NCBI GenBank assembly: GCA_026129485.1 | Contig: JAHCHY010000005.1 | Coordinates: 62,001 to 126,000, forward strand | DNA length: 64,000 nucleotides | Direction of reading: 5' to 3' | DNA from: Cyclobacteriaceae bacterium | Lineage (GTDB): Bacteria; Bacteroidota; Bacteroidia; Cytophagales; Cyclobacteriaceae | Shown here: positions 1,733 through 62,618 of the stretch, piece after piece | How the letters are laid out: the number at the start of each line of letters is the position of its first letter | Numbering within the stretch: the first letter of the stretch is position 1 | Translations under genes and position numbers: made by a program | Notes under the pieces: generated by a model | Database searches by the model: none | Seen by the model: only the letters and a program-made list of their open reading frames with translations | Told to the model about the DNA's origin: nothing

Positions 1733-4361
1733 TTTTCAAAGAGTTAACTGGATTGGAAGTTGCCGCACGCAAAGTCTGAAAACCAATTGTACACATAGCA
1801 GTAACAAGCAGTAAGAATAACGGAATCAAAAACAAATCAAATGACAACTTCATTCGGTAAGGAAATTGTTCCATCCACTTATTTACGCCCCACCATATAA
1901 CAGGAAAGGCAATCAAACTACTAACCATGATTGGTCGTAAAAACTGACGAGTGAGCAGCATTACTATTGAGTTCACTGTAGCGCCCAACACTTTACGAAT
2001 ACTTATTTCCTTCAATCTATGAAGCGTGGCAAAGGAAGCCAATCCCCATAACCCCAGACATCCAATAGTTACGGCAAGCACAGAAAAAATACTAAAGAGC
2101 TGACCAATTCGAGCCTCTTCCTTGTATTGCGCATTGAATGTGTCGTCCATGAAATAGTATGAAAAGGTATCATCTGGAAAACTGTTGTTGTAGGCCGACT
2201 TTATTAAATCAATATTATTCCGAATATCTCCATTCAATTTAATCGAAATGCTGGTAGCAGATATTTTCTCAGCGTGGAAAATCATAGGAGCAAAGGGTTG
2301 CTTTAATGAATTCCAGTGATGGTTTTTCACGACTCCGATTACGGAGTGGGTGCCAAAAGGAGTTATTATTTTTCCTTTGAGCGCATCCTTATTTGTTCCA
2401 AGATTAAAAACTTTAACTGCTTCCTCATTGATAACAACCGACTCCATTTCAGAATTAACCTGAGGATTCCAGGCCTTTCCTTCAATCAAAGGAATATTAT
2501 ACAAGTCAATAAAATCAGGATCGACCCAATAAATATTTCCGATTCGATTTTCTTCTACCGGACTTCCTTCTTTTCGCATTCCACTGCTCACGCTGGCATC
2601 TTCACCGGGTAAAGAAAAAGAAGTACAGATATTATCCACAAATGATAATTGCCTGATTTCATTTTTAAAGGAAAAAACTCTTTCTTCAATGTCTTTGCGT
2701 TCTGACAACTCTGGCCCTTTCACAATTATTATCTGGCTGGTGTCAAGACTTTTCTCCTGATCTTTCATAAAGGCAACCTGTTTGTAAATAGCATAAGTAG
2801 CGATGAGCAACATCAGCGAAGCTGAGAATTGAAATGTTACTAAGTTGTTGCGCAGCGAAAAACCCTTTGCCTTCTTCACTATTTTCCCTTTGATCACTTC
2901 CGATGCCTTATAGGAAGAAAGTAACAACGCGGGATAGATTCCCGCGCCAAACGTTCCGGCTAAAAAAAGTACAGCAATAATTATCCAAAGAGCAGGATCA
3001 AGAAAGTTGAAAACGAGCGATTGCTCAATCAACTGATTCAGCATAGGCAAAGTCATCCGGGCTAAAATCAATGCAAGGGATATACTGATCAGGTTTATTA
3101 TGGCTGACTCAAAAACAAACTGAAAGATCAATTGTCCTCTGAAAACTCCGAGCACTTTTTTAACACCCACTTCTCTGGCCCTTTCCATGGCACGGGCGGT
3201 CGATAAGTTGATATAGTTGACCCAGGCGATAAGCAGGATAAAAATGGCCAGTACTGCAAAGAAATAAATCATTTTCCAGTGACTTCCCGGATTTTCCAGA
3301 TCGGGCGAGTAGTGAATATCAAGAAGAGGTTGAAACTGGAGATTTGATTTACTCTTAATGCTCTTGTCGCTCCCCTGGTATTTTTTAACGAAAGCGGGAA
3401 TTCGTTCATTTAACTGAAACATATCCGATGAAGGATTCGACTCAAGATAGGTATGAAAGTTATCCCAGCGTGAATTGTCGTTTCGATAAAAATCAATTTG
3501 CAAAAGAGCTTGCATGGGTAAGAGCAGATCAAATTTGAAATGAGAATTAGCCGGCACATCCTCTACTACTGCGCTTACTTCGTATGATCCGGGAATCCAG
3601 CCATCTTCCAGTGTCACTATTTTACCAATAGGGTTGGCGGAAGCGCCAAAATATTTTAAGGCAATTGACTGTGTAATGACAACCGAGTTTGGGTTCGCCA
3701 GTGCCGTTCTTGAGTTTCCTTGTATGAATTTAAAAGTAAACATATCAAGAAAGGTACTGTCTGCAATCAGCATAACAGACTCTTTAAACTTTCGATGATT
3801 TTGAGAATCATCATCGATGGTGACAACACTACCATTGTGATGAATGCGACTAAATCTCCTGAATTCAGGAAAATCATTTAATATGTTTGGTCCGAGATCA
3901 TATCCGCAGAACGATTCCGTTTTTCCATCTGTATAAAATGAACTGACTACTCTGTATATATTTTTAGCGTTAGTGTGACTGCTTTCAAAACTCGTTTCAA
4001 ACTCTACATACTTGGCGATTACAAGACATGCCGACATGCCTATCGCCAAACCAAAAACGTTGATGAGCGAATATGCTTTTCGTTTCAATAAATTCCGAAT
4101 TGTTATTTTAAAATAATTTTGAAGTATAGTAAACTGAATTAAGTCCATCGAAATCATATTTCTCATTAAAATCCCCGGCCTGAAAAACCGTATCACATTC
4201 CAGGTCAATCTTCGTTTTGCTTTCCTTTCTCCGTAAACATTTACATCACGATGAAATTTTTGGATAAGGTCGCCTTCGATTTCTTCGTATAAATGAGCCG
4301 GGCAGAACCATTTTAGGAAACGTAATGAAGACTTGGGGAGATTTGGGTTATTCTCGTTCAT
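1725..4361 (-). CDS. FtsX-like ABC transporter permease with prefix domain
   Basis: This 878-residue protein has a cytoplasmic prefix (about 1-75), a first transmembrane helix around 95-115 (YSLINVFGLAIGMSACLVIA), a large periplasmic MacB-like domain, a helix group starting near 400 (YINLSTARAMERAREVGVKK), a second periplasmic domain, and C-terminal helices with the FtsX signature LKEISIRKVLGATVNSIV. This is the usual duplicated layout of Bacteroidota permeases of this class. It starts 2 nt after the stop of the upstream paralogue and overlaps the downstream one by 8 bp. Function is inferred from the family only: an inner-membrane permease acting on the envelope. No ATP-binding subunit is encoded in the operon. 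Confidence 0.92.
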   Translation of the reverse strand: MNENNPNLPKSSLRFLKWFCPAHLYEEIEGDLIQKFHRDVNVYGERKAKRRLTWNVIRFFRPGILMRNMISMDLIQFTILQNYFKITIRNLLKRKAYSLINVFGLAIGMSACLVIAKYVEFETSFESSHTNAKNIYRVVSSFYTDGKTESFCGYDLGPNILNDFPEFRRFSRIHHNGSVVTIDDDSQNHRKFKESVMLIADSTFLDMFTFKFIQGNSRTALANPNSVVITQSIALKYFGASANPIGKIVTLEDGWIPGSYEVSAVVEDVPANSHFKFDLLLPMQALLQIDFYRNDNSRWDNFHTYLESNPSSDMFQLNERIPAFVKKYQGSDKSIKSKSNLQFQPLLDIHYSPDLENPGSHWKMIYFFAVLAIFILLIAWVNYINLSTARAMERAREVGVKKVLGVFRGQLIFQFVFESAIINLISISLALILARMTLPMLNQLIEQSLVFNFLDPALWIIIAVLFLAGTFGAGIYPALLLSSYKASEVIKGKIVKKAKGFSLRNNLVTFQFSASLMLLIATYAIYKQVAFMKDQEKSLDTSQIIIVKGPELSERKDIEERVFSFKNEIRQLSFVDNICTSFSLPGEDASVSSGMRKEGSPVEENRIGNIYWVDPDFIDLYNIPLIEGKAWNPQVNSEMESVVINEEAVKVFNLGTNKDALKGKIITPFGTHSVIGVVKNHHWNSLKQPFAPMIFHAEKISATSISIKLNGDIRNNIDLIKSAYNNSFPDDTFSYYFMDDTFNAQYKEEARIGQLFSIFSVLAVTIGCLGLWGLASFATLHRLKEISIRKVLGATVNSIVMLLTRQFLRPIMVSSLIAFPVIWWGVNKWMEQFPYRMKLSFDLFLIPLFLLLVTAMCTIGFQTLRAATSNPVNSLKNE

Positions 4362-4363
4362 CG

Positions 4364-7009
4364 TTATTCATATTTCAAACTATCAACAGGATTTGCCCGT
4401 GCCGTTTTGAGCGATTGAAACAGGATTGTCAGAAAAACAAAACCCAAAGCTGCCAGCGTGATGATTAGATAAAGCGTGTAATTCAGTTCAGTGCGATAAG
4501 CAAAATTATCTAACCACCGGTTGATTGCCCAGTAGGAAAATGGAGCAACAATAACGGCAGAAAGCATAACCAGCAACAGTGTGGTTTTTGATAACAGGTG
4601 AATAATATCCGGAATGTTTGCCCCTAATACTTTCCTAATCCCTATTTCTTTGGTTCGCTGTGTGGCGGTGAATGCGGAAAGCCCGACAAGGCCAAGCAAC
4701 GAGATAAAGATGCAGATATACATCAGCAACGAGAGGAGCTTGTTTTGATTAATGTCAGCCCTGTATTGTTCGTTGAACTTTTGATCTAAAAAGAAATATT
4801 CAAAAGGGCGACTGTCATAGCCCGACCACTTATCTTTTACATAAGCAATCGTACCGGGCAGGTCATGACCGGCTAACCTGATTTGCAGAAAGCCTGCATC
4901 CCAATGCCCCTTTATAATGAACATGGGGTCAACCCCCTGGTATAGTGCGTTTACATTAAAATCTTTCACAACACCAATAACCTCTCCCGGATTTTCTCCC
5001 TCCCATAACGTTACTTTCTTACCTAAAGGGTCATTACCCCAACCCATTAATTTTACCGCAGACTCATTTGCGATATAGACGCCCTCCATGTCAGCATCCG
5101 GGCCGGGCTGAAAATCGCGTCCATTAATGAGCTTCAAACCCATCGACTTTAAATAGTCATCCCCTACGGACATCCCTAAGATGCCTCCATACTGCTGCAT
5201 TCCGTCAGGGCTTTCACCATACATTATGTTACTTCCAATGCCCAGCCCCATCACATTTTCTGATGCCGTAACAGCTTCAATATTGGGATTACTAAACAGT
5301 TCATTTTTTATTATCGGTAATTGGCGTATCATTAACGTATCCCTTAAAGGAATAACCAATACGTTATCTTTATTGAAGCCGAGGTCTTTGTTCATGATAA
5401 AATGAATCTGGTCGCGCATGAAGAAAGTACAGGCCACAACAAACATGGAAACGGAGAACTGAACAGTCATTAATACATTCCTGAACAACTGACCCGATTT
5501 ACTGTTTTTATATACGCCTTTCAATGCCTTAACAGCCGGTATGTTAGTGAGGTAAAATGCAGGATATAATCCAGACAGAAGACCAATGCACAACGTCATG
5601 AACAGCGACCCAAACAACAGCAAAGGATTATTCAGAAAATCCAGCGTAAGATTTTTATTAATGAGTTGATTAAAAGAACTTCCTTCCAATAAGACCGCCA
5701 CTAAGAGAATAGCCAGAATACAGGAAACGAGAGAAAGCAACAGCGATTCGCTTAGTGTTGAGAGCAACAACCCACGCTTAGACGATCCTGTTATTTTTCT
5801 TACCCCAATCTCGGCAGCACGGTTAGCAGCTTTGGCCGTGGAAAGGTTCATGTAATTGATGCACGCCAGCACAATGATGAAAAAACCGATACCTGCAAGC
5901 GCATAGAGATAGTTCAGGTTACCTTCCTGCTCACCATCCTGGAGATGGGAATAAAAATGAATATCAGCCAGTTGTTCCAGGATTGGAATATTTTCACCGG
6001 AAGCTTCATCTCCTGCTTCTTTGAAATAAGTATCATAAACAGCAGAGAACTTATCGTAAAAATCCTGAACATTATAATTATCCTGTAACAGCAGGTAAGT
6101 ATAGACATCAGGATTCCAGAATAGAAGCGAGATCGGTTTTCCATTCTCTATTGTAGAAGTCCAGTTTTCACGTATTTCGTCTAATCCGGATAAAAGAAAA
6201 TCGAATTTGAGATGCGTATTTTCAGGAATATCCCTGATGACACCGGTAATACCCCTGGGAACATGATTAATGACAAGCGTCTTGCCTAACGGATCAGGAT
6301 CGTTAAAATATTTTTTAGCCATTGACTGCGTGATGACTACACTATGACGGTTATTCAGGCACGTATTGACATCTCCATAAATGAATTCGTGATCGAACAA
6401 CTGGAAATAAGCATCGTCCGCCTGTATCAATCGATCTTCATAAAATGCTTTTTCTTCTTCATCGTCTTCTTTCCGTACCAACTGCCGATCCATTCTTATG
6501 ATCCGGGTCATCGCTTCAATTTCAGGAAACCCTTCTTTCAGAACAGGTCCGAGTTCGCGGGCGGTAATTCCAATGTACTCATCAACACCCGTAATTTTAT
6601 AATGGCTTCCAAGACGATAGATTCTTTTTTGATTGGCATAGTGTTGGTCATACGTGAGATCATTTTGCAAAATCAAAAGCAGGATAATGCCTACGGCAAT
6701 TCCCAATGAAAGTCCGAGGATATTCAATGTGGAAAAGAACTTGTTTCTCAAAAAAATACGGATAGAAAATTTTAAATGATAGCGCAGCATATCCCATTGG
6801 TTTAGTTCGACTGAAAACTTATTTCTTAAAATAATCCCCGGCCTGAAAAACCGTATTACATTCCAAAGCAGTTTTCGTTTTGCTTTTCTTTCCCCGTAAG
6901 CCTGCACATCACGATGAAATTTTTGGATAAGGTCGCCTTCGATTTCTTCGTATAGATGATCGGGGCAGAACCATTTGAGGAGGCGGAGGGGTAATCTGTT
7001 TTCTTTCAT
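4364..7009 (-). CDS. FtsX-like ABC transporter permease with prefix domain
   Basis: This 881-residue paralogue of the next two genes is the first permease of the operon. It carries the prefix (LRLLKWFCPDHLYEEIEGDL at about 7-26), a first helix near 100-120 (LGLSLGIAVGIILLLIL), a MacB-like domain, the motif YMNLSTAKAANRAAEIGVRK near 390, and C-terminal helices with TKEIGIRKVLGANIPDII. The ATG at 7009 lies 54 nt downstream of the padR stop, with a 40-bp palindrome between them. It is probably cotranscribed with padR, in line with the common pairing of PadR regulators with prefix-domain permeases. The substrate is unknown. Confidence 0.92.
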   Translation of the reverse strand: MKENRLPLRLLKWFCPDHLYEEIEGDLIQKFHRDVQAYGERKAKRKLLWNVIRFFRPGIILRNKFSVELNQWDMLRYHLKFSIRIFLRNKFFSTLNILGLSLGIAVGIILLLILQNDLTYDQHYANQKRIYRLGSHYKITGVDEYIGITARELGPVLKEGFPEIEAMTRIIRMDRQLVRKEDDEEEKAFYEDRLIQADDAYFQLFDHEFIYGDVNTCLNNRHSVVITQSMAKKYFNDPDPLGKTLVINHVPRGITGVIRDIPENTHLKFDFLLSGLDEIRENWTSTIENGKPISLLFWNPDVYTYLLLQDNYNVQDFYDKFSAVYDTYFKEAGDEASGENIPILEQLADIHFYSHLQDGEQEGNLNYLYALAGIGFFIIVLACINYMNLSTAKAANRAAEIGVRKITGSSKRGLLLSTLSESLLLSLVSCILAILLVAVLLEGSSFNQLINKNLTLDFLNNPLLLFGSLFMTLCIGLLSGLYPAFYLTNIPAVKALKGVYKNSKSGQLFRNVLMTVQFSVSMFVVACTFFMRDQIHFIMNKDLGFNKDNVLVIPLRDTLMIRQLPIIKNELFSNPNIEAVTASENVMGLGIGSNIMYGESPDGMQQYGGILGMSVGDDYLKSMGLKLINGRDFQPGPDADMEGVYIANESAVKLMGWGNDPLGKKVTLWEGENPGEVIGVVKDFNVNALYQGVDPMFIIKGHWDAGFLQIRLAGHDLPGTIAYVKDKWSGYDSRPFEYFFLDQKFNEQYRADINQNKLLSLLMYICIFISLLGLVGLSAFTATQRTKEIGIRKVLGANIPDIIHLLSKTTLLLVMLSAVIVAPFSYWAINRWLDNFAYRTELNYTLYLIITLAALGFVFLTILFQSLKTARANPVDSLKYE

Positions 7010-7020
7010 GTGTGTAGTCC

Positions 7021-7060
7021 GTTTCCGGTTTCCAGTTACCGGTAACTGGCAACCGGAAAC
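7021..7060. repeat. Near-perfect 40-bp palindrome between padR and the FtsX gene
   Basis: The two 20-bp halves (7021-7040 and 7041-7060) are reverse complements except for one pair (7031/7050). The words are built on GTTTCCGGTT and CCAGTTACC. It can form a 20-bp hairpin with almost no loop between the padR stop and the permease ATG. There is no U-tract on the minus strand, so it is not a normal terminator. It may attenuate or stabilise the message, or be a dispersed intergenic repeat. Confidence 0.85.
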
Positions 7061-7063
7061 ACT

Positions 7064-17311: not shown

Positions 17312-17361
17312 AAAGACATAAGTATTGAGACGGTAATTCTCAATACTAACTACTCAATACT
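17312..17361. repeat. Short intergenic inverted and direct repeat related to the cassette flanks
   Basis: AGTATTGAG (17321-17329) and CTCAATACT (17339-17347) form a perfect 9-bp inverted repeat, and CTCAATACT recurs at 17353-17361. The left part contains AAGACATAAG, which also occurs in the left flank of the third four-helix-bundle cassette (59720s). It fills the gap between the ankyrin and acyltransferase genes. Confidence 0.6.
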
Positions 17362-17366
17362 GATTT

Positions 17367-18419
17367 ATGAGACGCTACGATATTGACTGGCTTCGTGTAA
17401 TTGCCATTGGCCTGCTTTTAATTTACCATGTGGCTATCGGGTTCCAATCGTGGGGAACGATGATCGGGTTCATCACCACATCCAAACCCTGGACGGCATT
17501 GTGGACACCCATGGCCATGCTGAATGTGTGGCGCATACCGCTCCTGTTTTTTGTTTCGGGTATGGGTGTGTACTTCGCCATGCAACAACGTAGCTGGAAG
17601 CAATTGATTACCGAACGCACCCTGCGCATCTGGCTGCCTTTTGTGTTTGGCATGTTCGCTATTGTGCCGCTGCATACACTGGTGTGGCGGTATTACTATA
17701 AAATGGAATTGCGCTATGCGTATGATCCCGGTCATCTCTGGTTCCTGGCCAACATTTTCGCGTATGTACTGCTCTTATCGCCCATCTTGTTTTATCTGAA
17801 AAAGAATGAGCAGGGAAAAGCAGCGCAGGTTATCAAAACCATATTTAGTACGCCATTAGGACTATTGATAGTAACGGCTGCATTTATTGCCGAGGTTCTG
17901 CTTGTTAAGCCTGTACCTTATGAGCTGTATGCCATGACGAGGCACGGATTTTTTCTTGGGTTGCTTGCATTCTTCTTTGGATTCTGCTTTGTGTTAAGCG
18001 GCACGGGCTTCTGGCAAATGCTGGTGAAATGGCGGTGGTTGTTTTTGTTGATTGCGGGTACCCTGTTCGCTTTGCGGATACATTACTTCGGCATGCAAAT
18101 CCCCGGGTATATGATCGTGATCGAATCGCAGGTATGGATTTACAGTGTGCTGGCATTCGGTCATAAGCATCTGAACCGAACCGGAAAAGTTTTGCAATAC
18201 CTGAGTCCTGCAGCTTACCCGGTTTACATCCTGCATATGTTTTTTCTGTACCTCGGCTCTGCTATTGTGTTTCCGTTAGCCATACCGGTGCAGGTTCAGT
18301 TTATGCTGGTATTATTGTTTACGCTGGGCGGCTGCCTGCTCTCTTACGAGATTATTAAGCGGGTAAAGTGGGTGCGGGTACTTTTTGGAATGAAGTTCCA
18401 TTCGAAGCAGGAGTCATAG
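17367..18419 (+). CDS. Acyltransferase 3 family membrane protein
   Basis: The 350-residue product starts MRRYDIDWLRVIAIGLLLIYHVAIGF, the typical first helix of acyltransferase-3 proteins with the conserved D/R and the helix-end histidine. About ten membrane helices follow, including WRIPLLFFVSGMGVYFAM and HLWFLANIFAYVLLLSP. These enzymes move acyl groups (often acetyl or succinyl) onto sugars or other envelope molecules at the inner membrane. The acceptor is not known, and no sugar-polymer genes are next to it. Confidence 0.9.
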   Translation: MRRYDIDWLRVIAIGLLLIYHVAIGFQSWGTMIGFITTSKPWTALWTPMAMLNVWRIPLLFFVSGMGVYFAMQQRSWKQLITERTLRIWLPFVFGMFAIVPLHTLVWRYYYKMELRYAYDPGHLWFLANIFAYVLLLSPILFYLKKNEQGKAAQVIKTIFSTPLGLLIVTAAFIAEVLLVKPVPYELYAMTRHGFFLGLLAFFFGFCFVLSGTGFWQMLVKWRWLFLLIAGTLFALRIHYFGMQIPGYMIVIESQVWIYSVLAFGHKHLNRTGKVLQYLSPAAYPVYILHMFFLYLGSAIVFPLAIPVQVQFMLVLLFTLGGCLLSYEIIKRVKWVRVLFGMKFHSKQES

Positions 18420-20139: not shown

Positions 20140-20199
20140 ATGAGGTAGATTTGGTTGCGAGTTACTGGTTTCTTGTTGCTGGTTATCTGTATCGTAAGA

Positions 20200-54810: not shown

Positions 54811-55248
54811 ATGAAAAGAGAGGAAACGATAGACTATAATATAAAAGCCGCCTGGCACAGCATTGCCCGCATGTATAACCAGCAGGCGGCAAAGTACCAG
54901 GGCACCATGTCTATTGGCTTTGCCTTACTTAATATACACGCTGAAGAGGGAACACCCGCCACCAAAGTAGGCCCATTGATGGGGCTGGAGCCACGCAGCC
55001 TCACGCGCCTCCTCAAATCGATGGAAGAGAAAGGGTTGATTTTGCGCAAAGCGGATAAAAACGATAAGCGATCCGTTCGCATTTTTCTTACCAAAGAAGG
55101 CAAACGCCACAGGGAGAAATCGAAAGAAACCGTGCTTCGTTTTAATGAAGTTGTGCGTGAACAGTTGCCGAAAGAAAAGCTGGATGTTTTTTTTGATGTG
55201 GTGCAGAGTATTAACCTGATAATCGAGAAGAATAATATTTATAGTTGA
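54811..55248 (+). CDS. MarR family transcriptional regulator
   Basis: From ATG 54811, 145 residues with an all-helical dimer domain at the ends and a winged helix in the middle: KVGPLMGLEPRSLTRLLKSMEEKGLILRKADKNDKRSVRIFLT (about 52-94). The D-x-R in the wing (DKRS) is the family's DNA-contact motif. It stands in front of the fad operon on the same strand and is divergent from the YceI/porin unit; either may be its target. The first cassette begins right at its stop codon. Confidence 0.92.
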   Translation: MKREETIDYNIKAAWHSIARMYNQQAAKYQGTMSIGFALLNIHAEEGTPATKVGPLMGLEPRSLTRLLKSMEEKGLILRKADKNDKRSVRIFLTKEGKRHREKSKETVLRFNEVVREQLPKEKLDVFFDVVQSINLIIEKNNIYS

Positions 55249-55722
55249 TGGTTGTTAGTTGGCTGTTGCTTGATGGAGTATGGATCAAATAAAGTCTTAT
55301 GCGGATTTAGAGGTTTGGAAAAATGCCAAAAACCTGGCGAAAGAGATTTATTTGGTAACAAACTCGTTTCCAACACACGAACAATATGGACTTGTTGCTC
55401 AGTTGAGAAGAGCTTCGGTGTCAGTTCCTTCTAATATTGCAGAGGGTTGCGGCAGGAATTCATCGAAAGACACTGTTCGATTTTTATTCATTGCGCGCGG
55501 AGGATTGTATGAAATAGAAACACAAATTATTCTGGCACACGAATTAGGATTTATAACGCACGATGAAACGAAGGAAAAAATTTTAGAAATGGTTAATACC
55601 TCTAAAAAGCTATTGAATGGATTTATAAGCTATTACAGCAAGTTAGATAGCTCAATCGTAAATGAGCCGGAAGAACTTTATCGAAAACACGACCAACAAC
55701 CAGCAACAGACAACGAACAACT
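55249..55722. repeat. Cassette 1: four-helix-bundle gene with GTTG-rich flanks
   Basis: The region between the marR stop and the fadN start holds the first small cassette. The left flank (55241-55275) is rich in GTTG words (ATAGTTG, CTGTTGCT) and the right flank (55691-55722) in the complement CAAC (AGCAACAG at 55702-55709 mirrors CTGTTGCT at 55263-55270). The match is only partial, unlike the two later cassettes. Confidence 0.5.
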
Positions 55723-55726
55723 ATGA
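55280..55726 (+). CDS. Four-helix-bundle protein (23S rRNA IVS-type), cassette 1
   Basis: The 148-residue protein belongs to the family known from intervening sequences in 23S rRNA and from free-standing genes. Motifs are LEVWKNAKNLAKEIYLVTNSFP (about 10-31), YGLVAQLRRASVSVPSNIAEG (about 36-56), GRNSSKDTVRFLFIARGGLYEIETQI and a C-terminal helix. A tail (PATDNEQL) is encoded by the right flank repeat and is unlikely to be part of the fold. Its stop overlaps the fadN ATG. Relatives form pentamers; their role is unknown. Confidence 0.9.
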   Translation: MDQIKSYADLEVWKNAKNLAKEIYLVTNSFPTHEQYGLVAQLRRASVSVPSNIAEGCGRNSSKDTVRFLFIARGGLYEIETQIILAHELGFITHDETKEKILEMVNTSKKLLNGFISYYSKLDSSIVNEPEELYRKHDQQPATDNEQL

Positions 55727-58122
55727 ATAGATCAATCAAAAAAATTGCCGTACTCGGCTCGGGCATCATGGGTTCCCGCATTGCCTGCCACTTCGCCAAC
55801 ATTGGCGCAGACGTGTTGTTGCTCGACATCGCCCCGAAAGAACTAACGGAAGACGAAAAGAAAAAGGGATTAACGCTCGATCATCCGGCTGTAAAAAACC
55901 GCATTGTAAACGCAGCATTCGATGCCACACTTAAAGCCAACCCGGCTTCGCTGTTCAGTAAAAAGTTTGCTTCGCGCATTACACTCGGAAACTTTACCGA
56001 TGATATGCCGAAGATCAAACACTACGACTGGACGATTGAAGTTGTGGTAGAAAATCTCGACATCAAGAAAAAAGTGTATGAAGAAGTCGAGAAATATCGT
56101 ACGCCCGGCACGTTAATCACCTCTAACACCTCCGGCATTCCGATCCACTTAATGGCTGAAGGCCGCAGCGAAGATTTTCAAAAGCACTTTGCCGGAACAC
56201 ACTTCTTTAATCCTCCGCGCTATCTCAAATTATTAGAGATCATCCCCACTGCGAAGACCGATCCGGAGGTAACAAAATTCCTGTTGCACTATGGCGATTT
56301 GTTCCTCGGCAAAACCACTGTATTGTGTAAAGACACTCCGGCCTTTATCGGCAACCGCGTTGGCGTATGGGGCTTGCTGAAAGTGATCGACTCCATGCAA
56401 AAATTCGGGTTGAATGTAGATGAAGTAGATAAGCTGACTGGTCCGGTAATTGGTCGTCCGAAATCAGCTACGTTCCGAACCTCCGATGTGGTGGGCTTGG
56501 ATACATTGGTGAAAGTCGCTAACAATTTATACGCAGGTCTGCCCAACGATGAAGGCCGCGAAATGTTTAAACTGCCCGATGTGGTAGCCAAGCTCGAACA
56601 AAACAAATGGCTGGGCGATAAAACCGGTCAGGGTTTTTACAAGAAAACAAAAGATGCGAAAGGCAAGACTGAAATCCTTACGCTTGACCTCAACTCATTA
56701 GAATATAAAGAGAAAGCAAAGGCAAAATTCGCCACGCTCGAAACAACCAAAACGATCGACAACCTGCGCGACCGCTTTAAAGTATTGTTAGCGGGTAAAG
56801 ACAAAGCCGGTGATTTCTACCGCGATATGTTTTACGATCTGTTCAAATATGTGAGCAATCGTATTCCTGAAATCAGCGATGAACTTTTCCGTATTGATGA
56901 TGCCGTGAGCGGAGGCTTTGGCTGGGAGCTTGGCCCGTTTGAAACATGGGATGCCGTAGGCGTGGAAAAGAGCATTCCGTTGATGGAGGCAGCCGGTTAC
57001 AAACCGAATCAGTGGGTGTACGATATGTTGGCATCCGGCAACAAATCGTTTTACAAAACCGAAGGCGGCATTAAAAAGTATTACGACATCTCAAGTAAAA
57101 CATACAAGTCTATTCCAGGCAGGGAAGAGTTTATCATTCTCGAAAACAAAAGCGAAAGCATTGTTTGGAAAAATGCCGAATCGAAAGTTACCGACCTGGG
57201 CGATGGCGTGCTCAACTTCGCATGGCATTCCAAAAGCTACACACTTGGCAGCAGTGTAATCGAGGGCTTGAACAAAGCGATTGATCTTGCCGAAAAAGAT
57301 TATCGCGGCTTAGTAGTCGGTCATCAGGGCGCAGACTTCTCACTCGGTGCGAATTTAGGTTTGGTATTCATGTATGCCATCGAACAGGATTATGATGAGA
57401 TCGACTTCATGATCAAAATGTTTCAGAACTCCGTAATGCGTTTGCGTTATTCTTCTATTCCGGTTGTGGTTGCTCCGCAAGGCAGAACATTGGGCGGTGG
57501 TTGCGAAATGACCATGCATGCCGACATCGCACAGGCGGCAGCCGAAACCTATATCGGTTTAGTGGAAGTAGGTGTTGGCCTGATTCCCGGAGGAGGCGGA
57601 ACAAAAGAATTTACCAAGCGCGTGAGCGATGCTTTGCAGGAAGGCGATGTGGAATTGAATGCACTGCAAAACGCTTTCATGACTATCGCCACAGCGAAAG
57701 TGGCAACCTCTGCCGAAGAAGCACGCGAGTTGGGCATACTTAAAAAAGTCGATCGCGTAAGCATGAACCGCGACCGCCAGATTGCCGATGCCAAGCAAGC
57801 CGTGCTTGATCTTGCCGAAGCAGGTTACACCATGCCGCAACAGGCAAAGAACATCAAGGTGCAGGGTCGTACCGGTCAGGCGTTGTTCCTTGCCGGATTA
57901 CAGGGTATGCAAATGGGTCGTTACATTTCCGAGCACGATGCCAAAATCGCCAAGTGGATTGCGAACATCATGTGCGGAGGTGATTTAACATCGCCACAGG
58001 AAGTAAGTGAACAATACTTGCTGGATCTCGAACGCGAAGCATTCTTGTCGTTAACAGGTGAACGCAAAACGTTGGAAAGGATACAGTCCATTTTGACAGG
58101 GGGGAAACCGTTGAGGAATTAG
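55723..58122 (+). CDS. fadN: 3-hydroxyacyl-CoA dehydrogenase/enoyl-CoA hydratase, FadN-like
   Basis: This 799-residue bifunctional enzyme has the NAD-binding part first (KIAVLGSGIMGSRIACHF, GxGxxG at about 12-17), 3HCDH C-terminal domains (about 190-460) and an enoyl-CoA hydratase/crotonase domain last (about 515-720: GADFSLGANLG near 530, RTLGGGCEM near 588, GLIPGGGGTKEF near 620). This order is that of FadN of Bacillus, the reverse of E. coli FadB. It catalyses the hydration and oxidation steps of beta-oxidation. It is first in a fadN-fadA-fadE operon. Confidence 0.95.
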   Translation: MNRSIKKIAVLGSGIMGSRIACHFANIGADVLLLDIAPKELTEDEKKKGLTLDHPAVKNRIVNAAFDATLKANPASLFSKKFASRITLGNFTDDMPKIKHYDWTIEVVVENLDIKKKVYEEVEKYRTPGTLITSNTSGIPIHLMAEGRSEDFQKHFAGTHFFNPPRYLKLLEIIPTAKTDPEVTKFLLHYGDLFLGKTTVLCKDTPAFIGNRVGVWGLLKVIDSMQKFGLNVDEVDKLTGPVIGRPKSATFRTSDVVGLDTLVKVANNLYAGLPNDEGREMFKLPDVVAKLEQNKWLGDKTGQGFYKKTKDAKGKTEILTLDLNSLEYKEKAKAKFATLETTKTIDNLRDRFKVLLAGKDKAGDFYRDMFYDLFKYVSNRIPEISDELFRIDDAVSGGFGWELGPFETWDAVGVEKSIPLMEAAGYKPNQWVYDMLASGNKSFYKTEGGIKKYYDISSKTYKSIPGREEFIILENKSESIVWKNAESKVTDLGDGVLNFAWHSKSYTLGSSVIEGLNKAIDLAEKDYRGLVVGHQGADFSLGANLGLVFMYAIEQDYDEIDFMIKMFQNSVMRLRYSSIPVVVAPQGRTLGGGCEMTMHADIAQAAAETYIGLVEVGVGLIPGGGGTKEFTKRVSDALQEGDVELNALQNAFMTIATAKVATSAEEARELGILKKVDRVSMNRDRQIADAKQAVLDLAEAGYTMPQQAKNIKVQGRTGQALFLAGLQGMQMGRYISEHDAKIAKWIANIMCGGDLTSPQEVSEQYLLDLEREAFLSLTGERKTLERIQSILTGGKPLRN

Positions 58123-58528
58123 TATTTAGTCGTTAGTCCAAAGTCCTTAGACAGATGAATAATTATAAGGAATTAAAAGTTTGGCAGAAGTCGGTAGATC
58201 TTGCAGTAAAGATCTACGAGTCAACTAAAACATTTCCTCGTGAAGAGGCTTATGGACTAACCTCTCAAATCAGAAGATCAGTAGTTTCAATTGCTTCAAA
58301 TATTGCAGAGGGTGCTGGCCGAAATTCCAAAAAAGACTTTAAAAACTTTTTAGCGATTTCAAACGGATCGATCTGTGAACTTGAAACACAATTAAGAATT
58401 GCTAACAGGATAGATTTTTTGAATGAATCTTCCTTCGAATCACTTCAAAAAGACATTACGGAAATACAAAAAATGAATTGGGCCTTACAAAAGACCCTTA
58501 GCTAACTATTTACTAACGACTAAATACT
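58121..58528. repeat. Cassette 2 bounded by a perfect 17-bp inverted repeat
   Basis: AGTATTTAGTCGTTAGT (58121-58137) and ACTAACGACTAAATACT (58512-58528) are exact reverse complements. The left arm begins inside the fadN stop codon (58120-58122) and the right arm ends 7 bp before the fadA ATG. Between them is only the four-helix-bundle gene. The element is 408 bp. Confidence 0.85.
58155..58505 (+). CDS. Four-helix-bundle protein (23S rRNA IVS-type), cassette 2
   Basis: A 116-residue member of the same family: LKVWQKSVDLAVKIYESTKTFP (about 7-28), YGLTSQIRRSVVSIASNIAEG (about 33-53), AGRNSKKDFKNFLAISNGSICELETQL, and a helical end. The sequence is clearly different from the copies before and after, so this is not a recent tandem duplication. 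The gene is AT-richer than the fad genes around it. It lies between the arms of a perfect 17-bp inverted repeat. Confidence 0.92.
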   Translation: MNNYKELKVWQKSVDLAVKIYESTKTFPREEAYGLTSQIRRSVVSIASNIAEGAGRNSKKDFKNFLAISNGSICELETQLRIANRIDFLNESSFESLQKDITEIQKMNWALQKTLS

Positions 58529-58535
58529 CAAGACT

Positions 58536-59708
58536 ATGAATGCATATATCGTAGCAGGTTTCAGAACTGGTGTTGGAAAAGCAAAACGCGGTGGACTTCG
58601 TTTCACTCGCCCGGATGATTTGGCTGCCGAGGTAATTAAACATCTCGTAAAATCCGTTCCCGGTGTTGAAAACAATATGGTCGATGACTTGATTGTGGGC
58701 AATGCCGTACCCGAAGCAGAACAGGGTATGCAAATGGGAAGGATGATTTCATTGCTCGCGTTGGGCATTGATACCCCCGGCATGATCGTTAACCGCTATT
58801 GCGGATCGGGTGTTGAGACAATCGCCATTGCAAGTCAGCGCATTCACGCGGGTCAGGCCGACATCATCATTGCGGGCGGAACAGAGTCGATGTCGCTCGT
58901 GCCGGTGATGGGGATCAAAACCGCGCTCAACTATGAGATCGCTAAAAACCACCCAACCTATTACACCAGCATGGGCTTGACAGCCGAAGAGGTTTCAAAG
59001 CAATACAAAATATCACGCGAAGAACAGGATCAGTTTTCGTACGAAAGTCACATGAAGGCCGCGGCTGCTTGGAAGGCCGATAAGTTCAAAGGCGAGATTG
59101 TCCCCATTACCGTAAAAGAAGTGTATGTGGATGAGAACATGAAAAAGAAAACCCGCGAGTGGGTAGTGGAGAAAGACGAGGGCATTCGTGCCGATACAAC
59201 CGTGGAAGGCTTATCAAAACTGAAACCTGTATTCGCTGCGGGCGGAACGGTGACGGCCGGTAACTCATCACAAACTTCCGATGGTGCTGCGTTTGTGATG
59301 GTGGTATCCGAACGTATGTTGAAGCAACTCAATGTAAAACCCATTGCCCGCATGGTAAGCTATGCCGCAGCCGGGGTTGATCCGCGCATTATGGGTATTG
59401 GGCCGGTGGCCGCCATTCCCAAAGCGTTAAAAATAGCCGGACTAAAGCAGGACGACATTGATCTGTTTGAACTCAATGAAGCTTTTGCCGCACAATCGTT
59501 GGCCGTGGTGAAAGAACTTGGTATCGACCGATCAAAACTAAATGTAAATGGCGGAGCGATTGCGGTGGGTCACCCGCTTGGTTCATCAGGTGCGAGGTTA
59601 TCGGTGCAATTGTTCAACGAATTAAAACGCCAGAATAAAAAATATGGCATGGTAACCGCGTGTGTTGGAGGAGGACAGGGAGTGGCTGGGATTTATGAAA
59701 TGCTTTAA
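58536..59708 (+). CDS. fadA: Acetyl-CoA C-acyltransferase (thiolase)
   Basis: The 390-residue enzyme has the catalytic nucleophile Cys89 (in [16 protein letters not shown]), His346 in [16 protein letters not shown] and Cys376 in [13 protein letters not shown] near the end, with the usual two-domain thiolase layout. It cleaves 3-ketoacyl-CoA with CoA to give acetyl-CoA, the last step of beta-oxidation. It is second in the operon. The four-helix gene in front of it may affect its translation but not its sequence. Confidence 0.95.
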
Positions 59709-60125
59709 TAGACGTTAGTAGCAAGACATAAGACGTTAGACAGATGCATAACTTCAAGGAATTAAAAGTTTGGCAAAATGCGAGGGCTTTTGTAAAAGAG
59801 ATTTACCTGAGCACAAACACCTTTCCGGCAGAAGAAAAGTATGGTCTGATTTCGCAAATGCGCAGGAGTGCTGTTTCTATTCCATCGAACATTGCAGAAG
59901 GAAGCGGACGAAGAACGGATAAAGATTTTGTTTATTTTTTAAATGTGTCTTTAGGATCAGCTTACGAACTTCAAACGTTATTATTTCTTTCTCAAGATCT
60001 CGATCTTCTTAATAATGAAAAAACAGAGTTATTGAATTCTTCTTTGGAAGAAATTCAAAAAATGATATACGGTTTAATTAAAACAATCAAAATATAAAGA
60101 CGAGCGACAAAGTCTAACGTCTATT
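59707..60125. repeat. Cassette 3 bounded by a perfect 12-bp inverted repeat
   Basis: AATAGACGTTAG (59707-59718) and CTAACGTCTATT (60114-60125) are exact reverse complements. The left arm includes the last two bases of the fadA stop. AGACGTTAGAC also occurs at 59731-59741 with its complement at 60112-60122. Only the four-helix gene lies between. Confidence 0.8.
59744..60097 (+). CDS. Four-helix-bundle protein (23S rRNA IVS-type), cassette 3
   Basis: This 117-residue protein has the same fold pattern: LKVWQNARAFVKEIYLSTNTFP (about 7-28), YGLISQMRRSAVSIPSNIAEG (about 33-53), SGRRTDKDFVYFLNVSLGSAYEL and a helical end. It resembles the other two along its length but differs at many positions. It is bounded by a 12-bp inverted repeat and lies between fadA and fadE. 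The role is unknown. Confidence 0.92.
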   Translation: MHNFKELKVWQNARAFVKEIYLSTNTFPAEEKYGLISQMRRSAVSIPSNIAEGSGRRTDKDFVYFLNVSLGSAYELQTLLFLSQDLDLLNNEKTELLNSSLEEIQKMIYGLIKTIKI

Positions 60126-60148
60126 GTCTAATTTCTAAAGTCCCAAAC

Positions 60149-61945
60149 ATGACAACAGCAACGAAAAGCACAATCAAAGGTGGAGAGTTCCTCATTCGCG
60201 AAACGCAGGCGCAGGAAGTTTTTATTCCTGAAGATTTTAATGAAGAGCAAAAAATGATTGCACAAACGTGCAGGGATTTTTTAAAGCAGGAAATACACCC
60301 GCGTTTAGATGAAATTGATTCCATGAAAAATCCGGAGCTGATGCCGCAGCTATTGGACAAAGCCGGTGAACTGGGCTTGTTAGGCACATCGGTTCCGCAA
60401 GAGCTGGGTGGTTTCGGTATGGATTTCAACACCACCATGCTGGTGGCCGAAGTGCTGGGTGCAGGACATTCTTTTGCGGTGGCGATTTCTGCTCACACCG
60501 GCATTGGCACGTTACCCATTTTATATTACGGTAACGAAGCGCATAAGAAAAAATACATTCCCAGGCTGGCTTCGGGCGAGTGGAAAGCAGCCTACTGTTT
60601 AACGGAACCGGATTCGGGCAGCGATGCCAACTCCGGCAAAACAAAAGCTGTGCTTTCTGCGGATGGTAAACACTACATCATCAACGGCCAAAAGATGTGG
60701 ATCACCAACGGGGGATTTGCGGACGTGTACGTGGTGTTCGCCAAAATTGATAACGACAAAAACCTGAGCGCATTCATTGTGGAGAAAGCCTTTGGCGGCA
60801 TAACCATGAATGAGGAGGAGAAGAAGATGGGTATCAAAGGATCATCCACCCGCCAGATATTCTTCAATGATTGTAAAGTGCCCGTTGAAAACCTGTTGAG
60901 CGAACGTGAAAATGGATTTAAGATCGCGGTAAACATTCTGAATGTTGGGCGCATTAAGCTTGGTGTTGCTGCAGTAGGCGGAAGCAAGATGGCTATCTCC
61001 AGGGCAATAAAATATGCAACCGAACGCAAACAATTTGGAGTGGCTATTGCCTCTTTTGGCGCCATTCAGCATAAGATTGCCGATGTAGCCGCGCACATCT
61101 TTGCTTCGGAGTCGGCACACTATCGCGCCAGCCAGAACATTGACGATGCCTATAACGCATTTATGGCAGGCGGCATGGATTCTGCAAAAGCGCGGTTAAA
61201 AGCATTGGAAGAATTTGCCATTGAGTGTGCCATTCTGAAAGTACATGGATCTGAAGTGCTGGACTACAGTGTGGATGAAGGCGTGCAGATCTATGGCGGA
61301 ATGGGTTTCTCGGCAGAAGGCCCGATGGACAGGGCGTACCGCGATGCACGCATCAATAGAATTTTTGAAGGCACTAACGAAATCAACCGGCTGCTTACCA
61401 TCGACATGCTGCTGAAACGCGCTATGAAAGGTCATCTTGATCTGATGACGCCCGCTATGGCTGTGCAGAAAGAATTGATGTCGATACCGGACTTTGGCAG
61501 CGATGACGATACTGCGCTTTTTGCCAAAGAGAAGAAGGCTTTGCGCAACCTGAAAAAAGCCGGGCTGATGGTTTCAGGCGCTGCCGTGCAAAAGTTCATG
61601 ATGAAGCTTTCGGAAGAGCAGGAAATTTTAATGAACCTGGCCGATATGCTGATTGAAGGTTATGTAGCCGAATCAGTCTTGTTGCGTGTGGAAAAATTAA
61701 TCAGCCTGCGTGGTGAAAAGGCATGCGAAATTGAAAAAGAAATGGCGTTGATTTACCTGCATCATGCAATTGAAAAAGTTGCTACTGCCGGCAGGAGCGC
61801 CATCACTTCGTTTGCCGAAGGCGATGAGCAACGCCTGATGCTGATGGGCCTGAAGCGTTTCACGAAAGTAGAACCCTACAACCTGAAAAACGCAAGGCGC
61901 AAGGTAGCAAAGCATCTGATTGAAAAAGGCGAGTATTCTTTTTAG
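60149..61945 (+). CDS. fadE: Acyl-CoA dehydrogenase, FadE-like (long form)
   Basis: The 598-residue flavoenzyme has N-terminal helices, LPILYYGNEAHKKKYIPRLASGEWKAAYCLTEPDSGSDA (about 118-156, the FAD-side motif), KMWITNGGFADVYVVFAK and the C-terminal DRAYRDARINRIFEGTNEINR (about 394-414) with the likely catalytic Glu. An extra C-terminal helical domain (about 450-598) is typical of the FadE of Bacillus and of very-long-chain types. It catalyses the first step of beta-oxidation. It is last in the operon and is followed by a terminator repeat. Confidence 0.94.
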   Translation: MTTATKSTIKGGEFLIRETQAQEVFIPEDFNEEQKMIAQTCRDFLKQEIHPRLDEIDSMKNPELMPQLLDKAGELGLLGTSVPQELGGFGMDFNTTMLVAEVLGAGHSFAVAISAHTGIGTLPILYYGNEAHKKKYIPRLASGEWKAAYCLTEPDSGSDANSGKTKAVLSADGKHYIINGQKMWITNGGFADVYVVFAKIDNDKNLSAFIVEKAFGGITMNEEEKKMGIKGSSTRQIFFNDCKVPVENLLSERENGFKIAVNILNVGRIKLGVAAVGGSKMAISRAIKYATERKQFGVAIASFGAIQHKIADVAAHIFASESAHYRASQNIDDAYNAFMAGGMDSAKARLKALEEFAIECAILKVHGSEVLDYSVDEGVQIYGGMGFSAEGPMDRAYRDARINRIFEGTNEINRLLTIDMLLKRAMKGHLDLMTPAMAVQKELMSIPDFGSDDDTALFAKEKKALRNLKKAGLMVSGAAVQKFMMKLSEEQEILMNLADMLIEGYVAESVLLRVEKLISLRGEKACEIEKEMALIYLHHAIEKVATAGRSAITSFAEGDEQRLMLMGLKRFTKVEPYNLKNARRKVAKHLIEKGEYSF

Positions 61946-61948
61946 AAG

Positions 61949-62010
61949 CAAGACTTAAGTAGTAAGATGTTAGATAAAAAACTCGGAGTGTTTCCGGGTT
62001 TTTTGTTTTG
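61949..62010 (+). repeat. Repeat copy A with a terminator hairpin, after fadE
   Basis: The first 34 bp (61949-61982) are identical to 63532-63565, and the rest is close. It holds a hairpin (AACTCGGA 61980-61987 with TCCGGGTT 61993-62000) followed by TTTTGTTTT, so it ends the fad operon. The words AGCAAGAC and GTTAGA also occur in the left flank of cassette 3. Confidence 0.85.
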
Positions 62011-62039
62011 CTTAACTTACAGTCCAAAAATTGATCTCA

Positions 62040-62618
62040 ATGCCGAATCTTTACGTCATAGCAGGATGCAACGGGGCTGGTAAAACCACCACTTCATTCA
62101 CTGTGTTGCCAGAGATGCTAAACTGCAAGGAGTTTGTTAATGCAGATGAGATTGCGCGCGGCCTTTCCCCTTTTCAGCCCGAAACGGTTTCTTTTCAGGC
62201 GGGGAGAATTATGTTAGCCCGTATCAGTGAATTGATAAATTCAAAAGTCGATTTTGGTTTCGAAACGACACTGGCAACGAAAAGCTATATTTCGCTTTTG
62301 AATAATAGCAAGAGAAAAGGATATACCGTAATGTTGATCTTCTTTTGGCTGGAATCAGTCGAACTTGCACAGACCAGGGTACGAGAACGTGTAAAAAAAG
62401 GAGGGCATAACATTCCTCCAGATATCGTTCACCGAAGATATCATCGCGGTATGGCTAACTTTTTCAGACTCTACAAAAACAACGTAGATGCCTGGCTTTT
62501 GTACGACAACTCGCATAACGTTCCCAAGCTTGTGGCCCGCCAGAAGCGAAATGAGGAAGTTGTTATAAATAATATCGATATTTGGAACACAATTCTTACC
62601 CATAATGACAAACGCTGA
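62040..62618 (+). CDS. Zeta-toxin-like P-loop kinase
   Basis: From ATG 62040, 192 residues (a TTG three codons upstream is less likely). The Walker A motif is GCNGAGKT at 9-16, and FVNADEIARGL near 35 and FGFETTLATKSY near 70 are typical of the zeta/PezT-like family, where D and E act in kinase catalysis. The later RVRERVKKGGHNIP matches the lid with arginines. Zeta toxins phosphorylate UDP-N-acetylglucosamine and stop wall synthesis. Here no epsilon-like gene is upstream; a small overlapping gene lies downstream instead. Confidence 0.85.
   Translation: MPNLYVIAGCNGAGKTTTSFTVLPEMLNCKEFVNADEIARGLSPFQPETVSFQAGRIMLARISELINSKVDFGFETTLATKSYISLLNNSKRKGYTVMLIFFWLESVELAQTRVRERVKKGGHNIPPDIVHRRYHRGMANFFRLYKNNVDAWLLYDNSHNVPKLVARQKRNEEVVINNIDIWNTILTHNDKR

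Follow-up and report, generated by a model that had tools for sequence, protein, structure and literature searches.

The three genes of the four-helix-bundle (4HB) family that stand before fadN, fadA and fadE in this fad operon are probably the cores of separate mobile cassettes that resemble the intervening sequences (IVSs) of 23S rRNA but lie between protein genes. Each 4HB gene is enclosed by two complementary arms of degenerate heptads, and the whole unit spans the gap from the stop codon of one protein gene to the start codon of the next. Among relatives, such genes have been gained, lost and replaced at the same sites, and their arms match bare hairpins of the same operon; the further point that arm family goes with protein lineage is supported roughly, by eye. 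The first-pass annotation of this DNA had reported one IVS-type 4HB gene in front of each fad gene and had proposed either mobile cassettes or proteins working with the operon's message. The complementary arms, the heptads and the ORF-less hairpins go beyond that description. New here are the arrangement of heptad arms between protein genes, the partner hairpins that lack an ORF, and the heptad match between gaps of one operon.

Heptad-armed units between the genes of a fad operon

The window, by which we mean the whole stretch of 64,000 nucleotides that was analysed, belongs to an assembly of 4.08 Mb in 40 contigs. By thiolase, the named genomes nearest to it are filed under Cyclobacteriaceae, Cytophagales or Flammeovirgaceae. 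The gene order is MarR-type gene, 4HB gene A, fadN, 4HB gene B, fadA, 4HB gene C and fadE (Table 1); a zeta-toxin-type kinase gene (62031-62618; PF06414) lies downstream of the operon. All three 4HB proteins match PF05635 (23S_rRNA_IVP) above its curated cut-off of 33.8 bits and over nearly the full length, which bears out the placing of one such gene before each fad gene. The copies are also diverged, as had been described, proteins A and C being 39% and 53% identical to B. The whole genome has just nine PF05635 matches, eight of them above the cut-off, and the trio in the fad operon is for that reason a cluster. The other five above-cut-off copies precede genes that, from translations read by eye, are like argD, dxr, mraY, murD and the gene of an HslU-type ATPase. 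Diverged PF05635 copies before dxr-, HslU-, mraY- and murD-like genes (L297, which is C3:10000-24500, L006 and L007) also have heptad-like arms. The nearest solved structures, 2gsc and 2rld, are both listed as uncharacterised proteins.

Table 1. Positions, in the window, of the cassette arms, the 4HB genes and the fad genes
Feature	Position	Strand	Remarks
Cassette A 5' arm, GTTGTTA family	55245..55275	+	From the end of the MarR-type gene; 81% complementary to 55697-55727
4HB gene A, 148 aa	55280..55726	+	PF05635, 124.8 bits
Cassette A 3' arm	55697..55727	+	Extends into the fadN start codon
fadN-type 3-hydroxyacyl-CoA dehydrogenase/enoyl-CoA hydratase	55723..58122	+	Pfam 3HCDH_N, 3HCDH, ECH_1
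Cassette B 5' arm, AGTCNTT family	58121..58144	+	Overlaps the fadN stop; 88% complementary to 58505-58528
4HB gene B, 116 aa	58155..58505	+	PF05635, 142.7 bits
Cassette B 3' arm	58505..58528	+	Directly upstream of the fadA start; arms 24 nt
fadA-type thiolase	58536..59708	+	Pfam Thiolase_N, Thiolase_C
Cassette C 5' arm, AGACATA/AGACGTT family	59711..59741	+	77% complementary to 60112-60142
4HB gene C, 117 aa	59744..60097	+	PF05635, 136.2 bits
Cassette C 3' arm	60112..60142	+	Directly upstream of the fadE start; arms 31 nt; pairs in the fold
fadE-type acyl-CoA dehydrogenase	60149..61945	+	Pfam Acyl-CoA_dh_N/M/1, Acyl-CoA-dh_C
Heptad stretch, cassette C family	61946..61975	+	Directly follows the fadE stop; a terminator-like hairpin comes next; read directly

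Judged by eye, the arm pairs of A, B and C belong to three different repeat families. In minimum-energy RNA folds the arms close the whole loop in all three cassettes; the 31-nt arms of A pair with each other, and the 426-nt fold of B is closed by 17 unbroken pairs. Fold energies gain only modestly over dinucleotide shuffles for A and B (z -2.9 and -2.7), the fold of C is no better than its dinucleotide shuffles (z -1.2), and an Rfam search of the whole window gave no match at gathering score. The stop codon of gene A overlaps the fadN start (ATGA), and the C terminus of its protein is translated 3' arm (55690-55726); long ORFs likewise extend into the 3' arm in several lineage C3 elements of relatives. 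Elsewhere in the window, an ORF-less heptad hairpin of the ACCGGTAACTGG type lies between two minus-strand genes (7010-7062), and heptads like these, by eye, flank the 4HB gene before an HslU-type gene of the same genome (L005). More heptad periodicity, mostly in intergenic gaps, is found at 17333-17371 and 20153-20185, and at 4354-4381 it occurs on the edge of two minus-strand genes.

Among the 146 relatives searched, thiolase matched in 137 at E 1e-80. The fad locus sample comprises 60 relatives, namely 54 of the 61 same-genus genomes and six same-family genomes; the seven same-genus genomes left out had no, weak or partial matches, and most family genomes and all order genomes lie outside the sample. 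A genus-wide search found the PF05635 family in 56 of 58 genomes, and the genomes searched hold several hundred copies. With 40 further loci added, the set came to 104 distinct PF05635 ORFs, 103 of them with at least 50 bits, and arms were scorable in 102. The mean arm-pairing score was 45.5 for own pairs, 28.2 for cross pairs and 26.4 for shuffled arms (largest shuffle, 53). Own pairs exceeded the pooled 95th percentile of the shuffles in 72 of the 102 elements; 44 scored better than all 25 cross pairs and 58 did not, by a control that is strict because near relatives with like arms were included. Lag-7 identity was 0.43 in the 5' arms (z 21.6) and 0.40 in the 3' arms (z 20.1) against 30 single-base shuffles, with renewed peaks at lags 14 and 21. 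Arm identity at lags 5, 6 and 9 showed no excess over shuffles; lag 8 showed a small one (z 2.2 in 5' arms and 5.7 in 3' arms), and lag 1 reached z 11.4 in 3' arms.

Both neighbouring genes were called sense to the ORF in 98 of 103 elements. Among the five exceptions, L005 is an ORF-calling error, the downstream start being visible on the sense strand, and L143 is probably another, since its gene pair was called sense in five aguBA-type loci; L130 is cut by the end of its contig, and the last two are L159 and L160. Across the phylum, the PF05635 family is present in 157 of 198 genomes. The 29 best-scoring newly fetched phylum elements gave lag-7 z values of 7.1 and 11.4 and lag-8 values of 2.9 and 7.0; both neighbours were sense in 28 of them, and the arms beat all 12 shuffles in 18. 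Because these elements show the same features, the cassettes of the window are one case of a common anatomy. One PF05635 element (L157, 1185-1539) lies between genes that by eye resemble split halves of metH. With respect to the junctions themselves, a G-poor, A-rich sequence before the start codon is equally common in plain gaps. The stop codon is TAG in 19 of 30 fadN-fadA gaps with an element versus one of 11 plain gaps, and no clear link is seen between fadA and fadE (11 of 23 versus six of 17).

Gain, loss and replacement at the three sites

The gaps before fadN, fadA and fadE are referred to here as sites A, B and C. In the 60 relatives, these sites carry a 4HB gene, carry only a heptad hairpin, or are short. 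Counting the window, a 4HB gene occupies site A in one of 55 loci, site B in 30 of 59 and site C in 23 of 61, and 16 fad loci with data have none at A, B or C. Bare heptad gaps, defined as 45 to 230 nt with a lag-7 identity of at least 0.36, number 17 at A, 18 at B and 21 at C, the others being short or plain. Taken together, the ORF-less gaps of 45 to 230 nt have lag-7 z values of 13.7 (site A), 19.5 (B) and 15.2 (C), and seven of 31, 12 of 20 and 15 of 29 of them, respectively, fold at z below -3 relative to single-base shuffles.

The 4HB gene at site A, and hence the presence of all three genes together, is confined to the window among the 55 loci scorable at A; a separate set of named loci, many of them from the same genomes, had no 4HB gene at that site. 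The first-pass annotation had suggested that the fad operons of relatives be compared and had taken the sharing of all three genes by all relatives as the mark of old operon members. The comparison revealed presence and absence at identical sites, Ohtaekwangia koreensis having bare gaps of only 12 nt (site B) and 33 nt (site C), and the trio in the window alone. Chryseotalea sanaruensis, a cultured relative (L240), has an element between fadA and fadE. Decay is visible in L198 and L199, which have a 4HB gene at B and a shrunken, broken one at C, and in L200, which has 66 nt at C. The site C gaps of L058 and L059 (187 and 169 nt) have long loops between TTGACAA arms and are possibly remnants of a lost 4HB ORF. 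In some metagenome assemblies fadN (L089, L214) or fadA (L097) appears to be split into more than one frame, possibly through sequencing errors.

A quick host tree built from the fad genes of 54 loci has 16 changes of 4HB presence at site B and 12 at site C; counting all states, there are 26 and 24 changes, with nine of the 51 inner branches open. The protein tree, which has 103 rows and only 115 columns, had been put forward as a further check, and on it the elements of a single site fall into separate lineages. Those between fadA and fadE form three lineages, with three label changes on well-supported (starred) branches, and those between fadN and fadA require at least three label changes on well-supported branches. 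By the reckoning of these trees, elements must have reached sites B and C on several separate occasions. Gene A of the window joins the third fadA/fadE lineage (99/97), and by eye cassette A has the same arm family as that lineage, on the other side of fadN; this grouping is the plainest sign that elements have moved from one site to another. Most other protein lineages are confined to one site, which suggests that such movement is rare. Arm family, by eye, tracks protein lineage with some exceptions: both an AGTAGGC and a TTGACAA arm family occur in lineage B1, and arms from two families are combined in the broken site C element of L198. There is no mobility enzyme within the cassette unit, and no target-site duplication was visible when filled and short gaps were compared by eye.

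Seven pairs of filled gaps that are at least 80% identical were compared with their flanks. In one of them, the site B cassettes of L079 and L081, which are two species, there is a single difference in 524 positions (523/524 identical), against about 92% identity in the flanks, for which the final 600 nt of fadN and the initial 600 nt of fadA were taken. Mismatches end 19 nt ahead of the fadN stop and set in again some 60 nt into fadA, and the site C elements of the same two loci belong to different lineages. Judged by this pattern of identity, a whole cassette was recently transferred between species, and the breakpoints lie close to the ends of the genes. In the other six pairs, gap identity exceeds that of the flanks by about 1 to 8 points, a clear excess being present in only one of the seven. 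Given such similar flanks, recombination in the neighbouring genes is the simplest vehicle.

Heptad concordance within operons and competing explanations

The arms of an element resemble ORF-less gaps (45 to 230 nt) at other junctions of its own operon. Scores were 16.9 versus 11.3 permuted for B element arms against the C gap (n = 19) and 15.9 versus 10.5 for C element arms against the B gap (n = 11), both with 0 of 5,000 permutations as high, and 10.8 versus 9.0 for C element arms against the A gap (n = 12, p 0.004); B element arms showed no concordance with site A gaps (8.9 versus 8.8; n = 19, p 0.44). At a score of 13, 23 of 30 B/C pairs match and seven fail, compared with matches in 25% of cross pairs. 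Because related genomes are not independent, the permutation was also run inside one clade of six genomes with three heptad families, where two of the 720 arrangements, the identity included, were equally good. In operons with no 4HB gene, concordance was not significant between ORF-less B and C gaps (n = 7, p 0.11), nor between A and B (p 0.36) or A and C (p 0.86; n = 5 each). This contrast between operons with and without the gene, small as it is, hints that the protein is involved in the concordance.

A similar resemblance is seen in arg operons, where all 10 gaps, picked by eye, are closer to the 12 arg-element arms than to 90 others; five farther arg gaps, also picked by eye, show no such resemblance. 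The arms in this comparison were set by the ORF start and the gaps came from 10 of 11 arg loci, L287 having no other codirectional gap; relative to the element, the gap is downstream in L286 and upstream in the other nine. In a first scan of non-fad loci, five of the seven usable cases were higher (p 0.06).

Each unit consists of a 5' heptad arm beginning at the upstream stop, a sense 4HB ORF and a complementary 3' arm that ends at the next start and thereby doubles as the leader of the next gene. The proposed course of events is as follows. The 4HB protein, which by homology is probably a pentameric nucleic-acid-binding ring, would recognise its own heptads, and such recognition may aid the persistence or spread of the unit. 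Between cells, cassettes could move through recombination in the conserved flanking genes, which would account for most lineages keeping one site. In the mRNA the arms may pair, and RNase III may cut them as it does in rRNA, so that insertion at gene junctions would be tolerated; an RNase III gene is present in the genome, and such processing of cassette transcripts is suggested by analogy with the rRNA IVSs. The bare hairpins would descend from units whose ORF was lost.

The ORF itself gave a median dN/dS of 0.076 in the 33 of 128 pairs where the ratio was defined. Because only pairs with at least 70% protein identity were taken and dS mostly lies near or above 1, the figure is rough and leans low; on this rough measure the 4HB protein seems to be under purifying selection. 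A stem kept as sense RNA should bias mispairs to G-U over A-C. The counts were 117 G-U and 104 A-C in the arms of 97 elements (p 0.42) and 35 and 39 in 48 bare hairpins (p 0.73), with no G-U excess in either set, and they lend no support to RNA-level selection on the stem. Given this result, RNA processing remains an analogy, and it is as likely that the likeness of the arms is maintained by a process at the DNA level. The two proposals of the first-pass annotation have accordingly fared differently: mobility is largely borne out by presence and absence at the same site, separate lineages and recent transfer, and for work on the operon's message the concordance fits whereas the arms have no RNA-specific pairing bias.

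Foremost among the competing explanations, though in our estimate unlikely, is neutral local turnover, in which slippage and template switching would create heptad hairpins and copy them from one gap to a neighbouring one, the ORF being a passenger captured in some of them. The commonness of ORF-less heptad gaps at all three sites and elsewhere in the window speaks for it, as does the lack of a G-U bias; it is harder to square with arm families that follow protein lineage (by eye), with a concordance that is not significant where the 4HB gene is missing (n = 7 only) and with a conserved ORF. We regard as less probable again a cis-acting regulator, kept because it is useful, whose protein would bind own-family hairpins at the junctions of its own operon message and set processing, stability or translation. 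It would agree with the heptad concordance in the fad operons and, for gaps picked by eye, the arg operons, with the missing significance in the seven genomes that have no 4HB gene in the operon, and with the sense orientation, the low dN/dS and the 3' arms ending at start codons. Yet the 16 fad loci with no 4HB gene, the arms with no RNA pairing bias, and the 16 and 12 presence changes, a loose tenancy unlike that of an essential regulator, weigh against it.

The mobile cassette reading can be extended further, in a form that is speculative and that we hold more doubtful than either of these alternatives. Each pentamer-type lineage would read its own heptad address. A single cassette would bring both the protein gene and that address into an operon, more hairpins of like address would arise at its other junctions, and the protein would act on them, dividing or tuning the polycistronic message; this would amount to a mobile and modular operon-segmenting system across Bacteroidota of which the rRNA IVSs are one branch.

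Vertical inheritance of old operon members draws some support from the single site kept by most tree lineages, and is nonetheless very improbable and effectively ruled out by presence and absence and lineage replacement among relatives and by the L079/L081 transfer, as well as by a site A that is filled only in the window among the 55 loci scored. An origin as bAvd-type accessory proteins of a diversity-generating retroelement can be dismissed almost outright: B and C have weak similarity to PF22296, below its cut-off, and the linked reverse transcriptase that marks such a protein is missing, the genome giving no RVT_1 match (three of 14 control genomes were positive).

Likeness to known systems

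MITE- and REPIN-type repeats resemble the cassettes as short inverted-repeat intergenic units with ORF-less copies; the cassettes differ in having no transposase, no target duplication visible by eye, and an arm sequence that differs between lineages. S23p/IVP proteins have been known since the 1990s. A 2016 paper on Coxiella described them as having no known function (PMC4990558). The heptad-armed cassettes offer a concrete ligand, the protein's own heptads, for testing the function of PF05635 proteins; the solved Xanthomonas structure is described as a homopentamer ring (PMC4990558).

The closest likeness in anatomy is to the S23p-bearing IVSs of 23S rRNA described for Coxiella and Leptospira (PMC4990558), which share with the cassettes a unit of about 400 to 500 nt, complementary terminal arms, a PF05635/S23p ORF in sense orientation in the loop and a sporadic presence. 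Tandem heptameric repeats are also described for the 5' part of the Coxiella IVS (PMC4990558). Unlike the rRNA IVSs, the cassettes lie between the protein genes of a fad operon and have many heptad families; and whereas the Coxiella ORF is described as decaying and probably not expressed (PMC4990558), the ORF here is conserved, and ORF-less hairpins with the same heptads occur within the operon. The arms, the sense ORF and the sporadic presence are those of a 23S rRNA IVS and the defining location in rRNA is not, so we file the units as IVS-like cassettes rather than IVSs; the assembly itself gave no match to 23S rRNA. A four helix bundle protein reported in Flavobacterium columnare between guanylate kinase and nicotinate-nucleotide adenylyltransferase, in a phage region (PMC5524665), may belong to another such cassette. 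Searches of the open-access literature, which leave out subscription journals and bioRxiv preprints, listed no paper whose title or abstract opening connects PF05635 proteins with intergenic heptad arms.

Heptamers in intergenic gaps have been reported separately, as TAACTGA direct repeats in Beggiatoaceae, Cyanobacteria and some Bacteroidetes, which in one species stand mostly right before start codons and for which horizontal spread is suspected (PMC4679880). A passage search of the main text of that report gave no mention of four-helix proteins or intervening sequences. TAACTGA is one fixed heptamer in direct repeats (PMC4679880), whereas the cassettes have degenerate heptads of many families in inverted arms around an ORF; heptamers in intergenic gaps are common to both. 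Junctions in metabolic and cell-wall operons are open to repeated insertion, and the cassettes found there link the intervening sequences of rRNA with these separately reported intergenic heptamer repeats.
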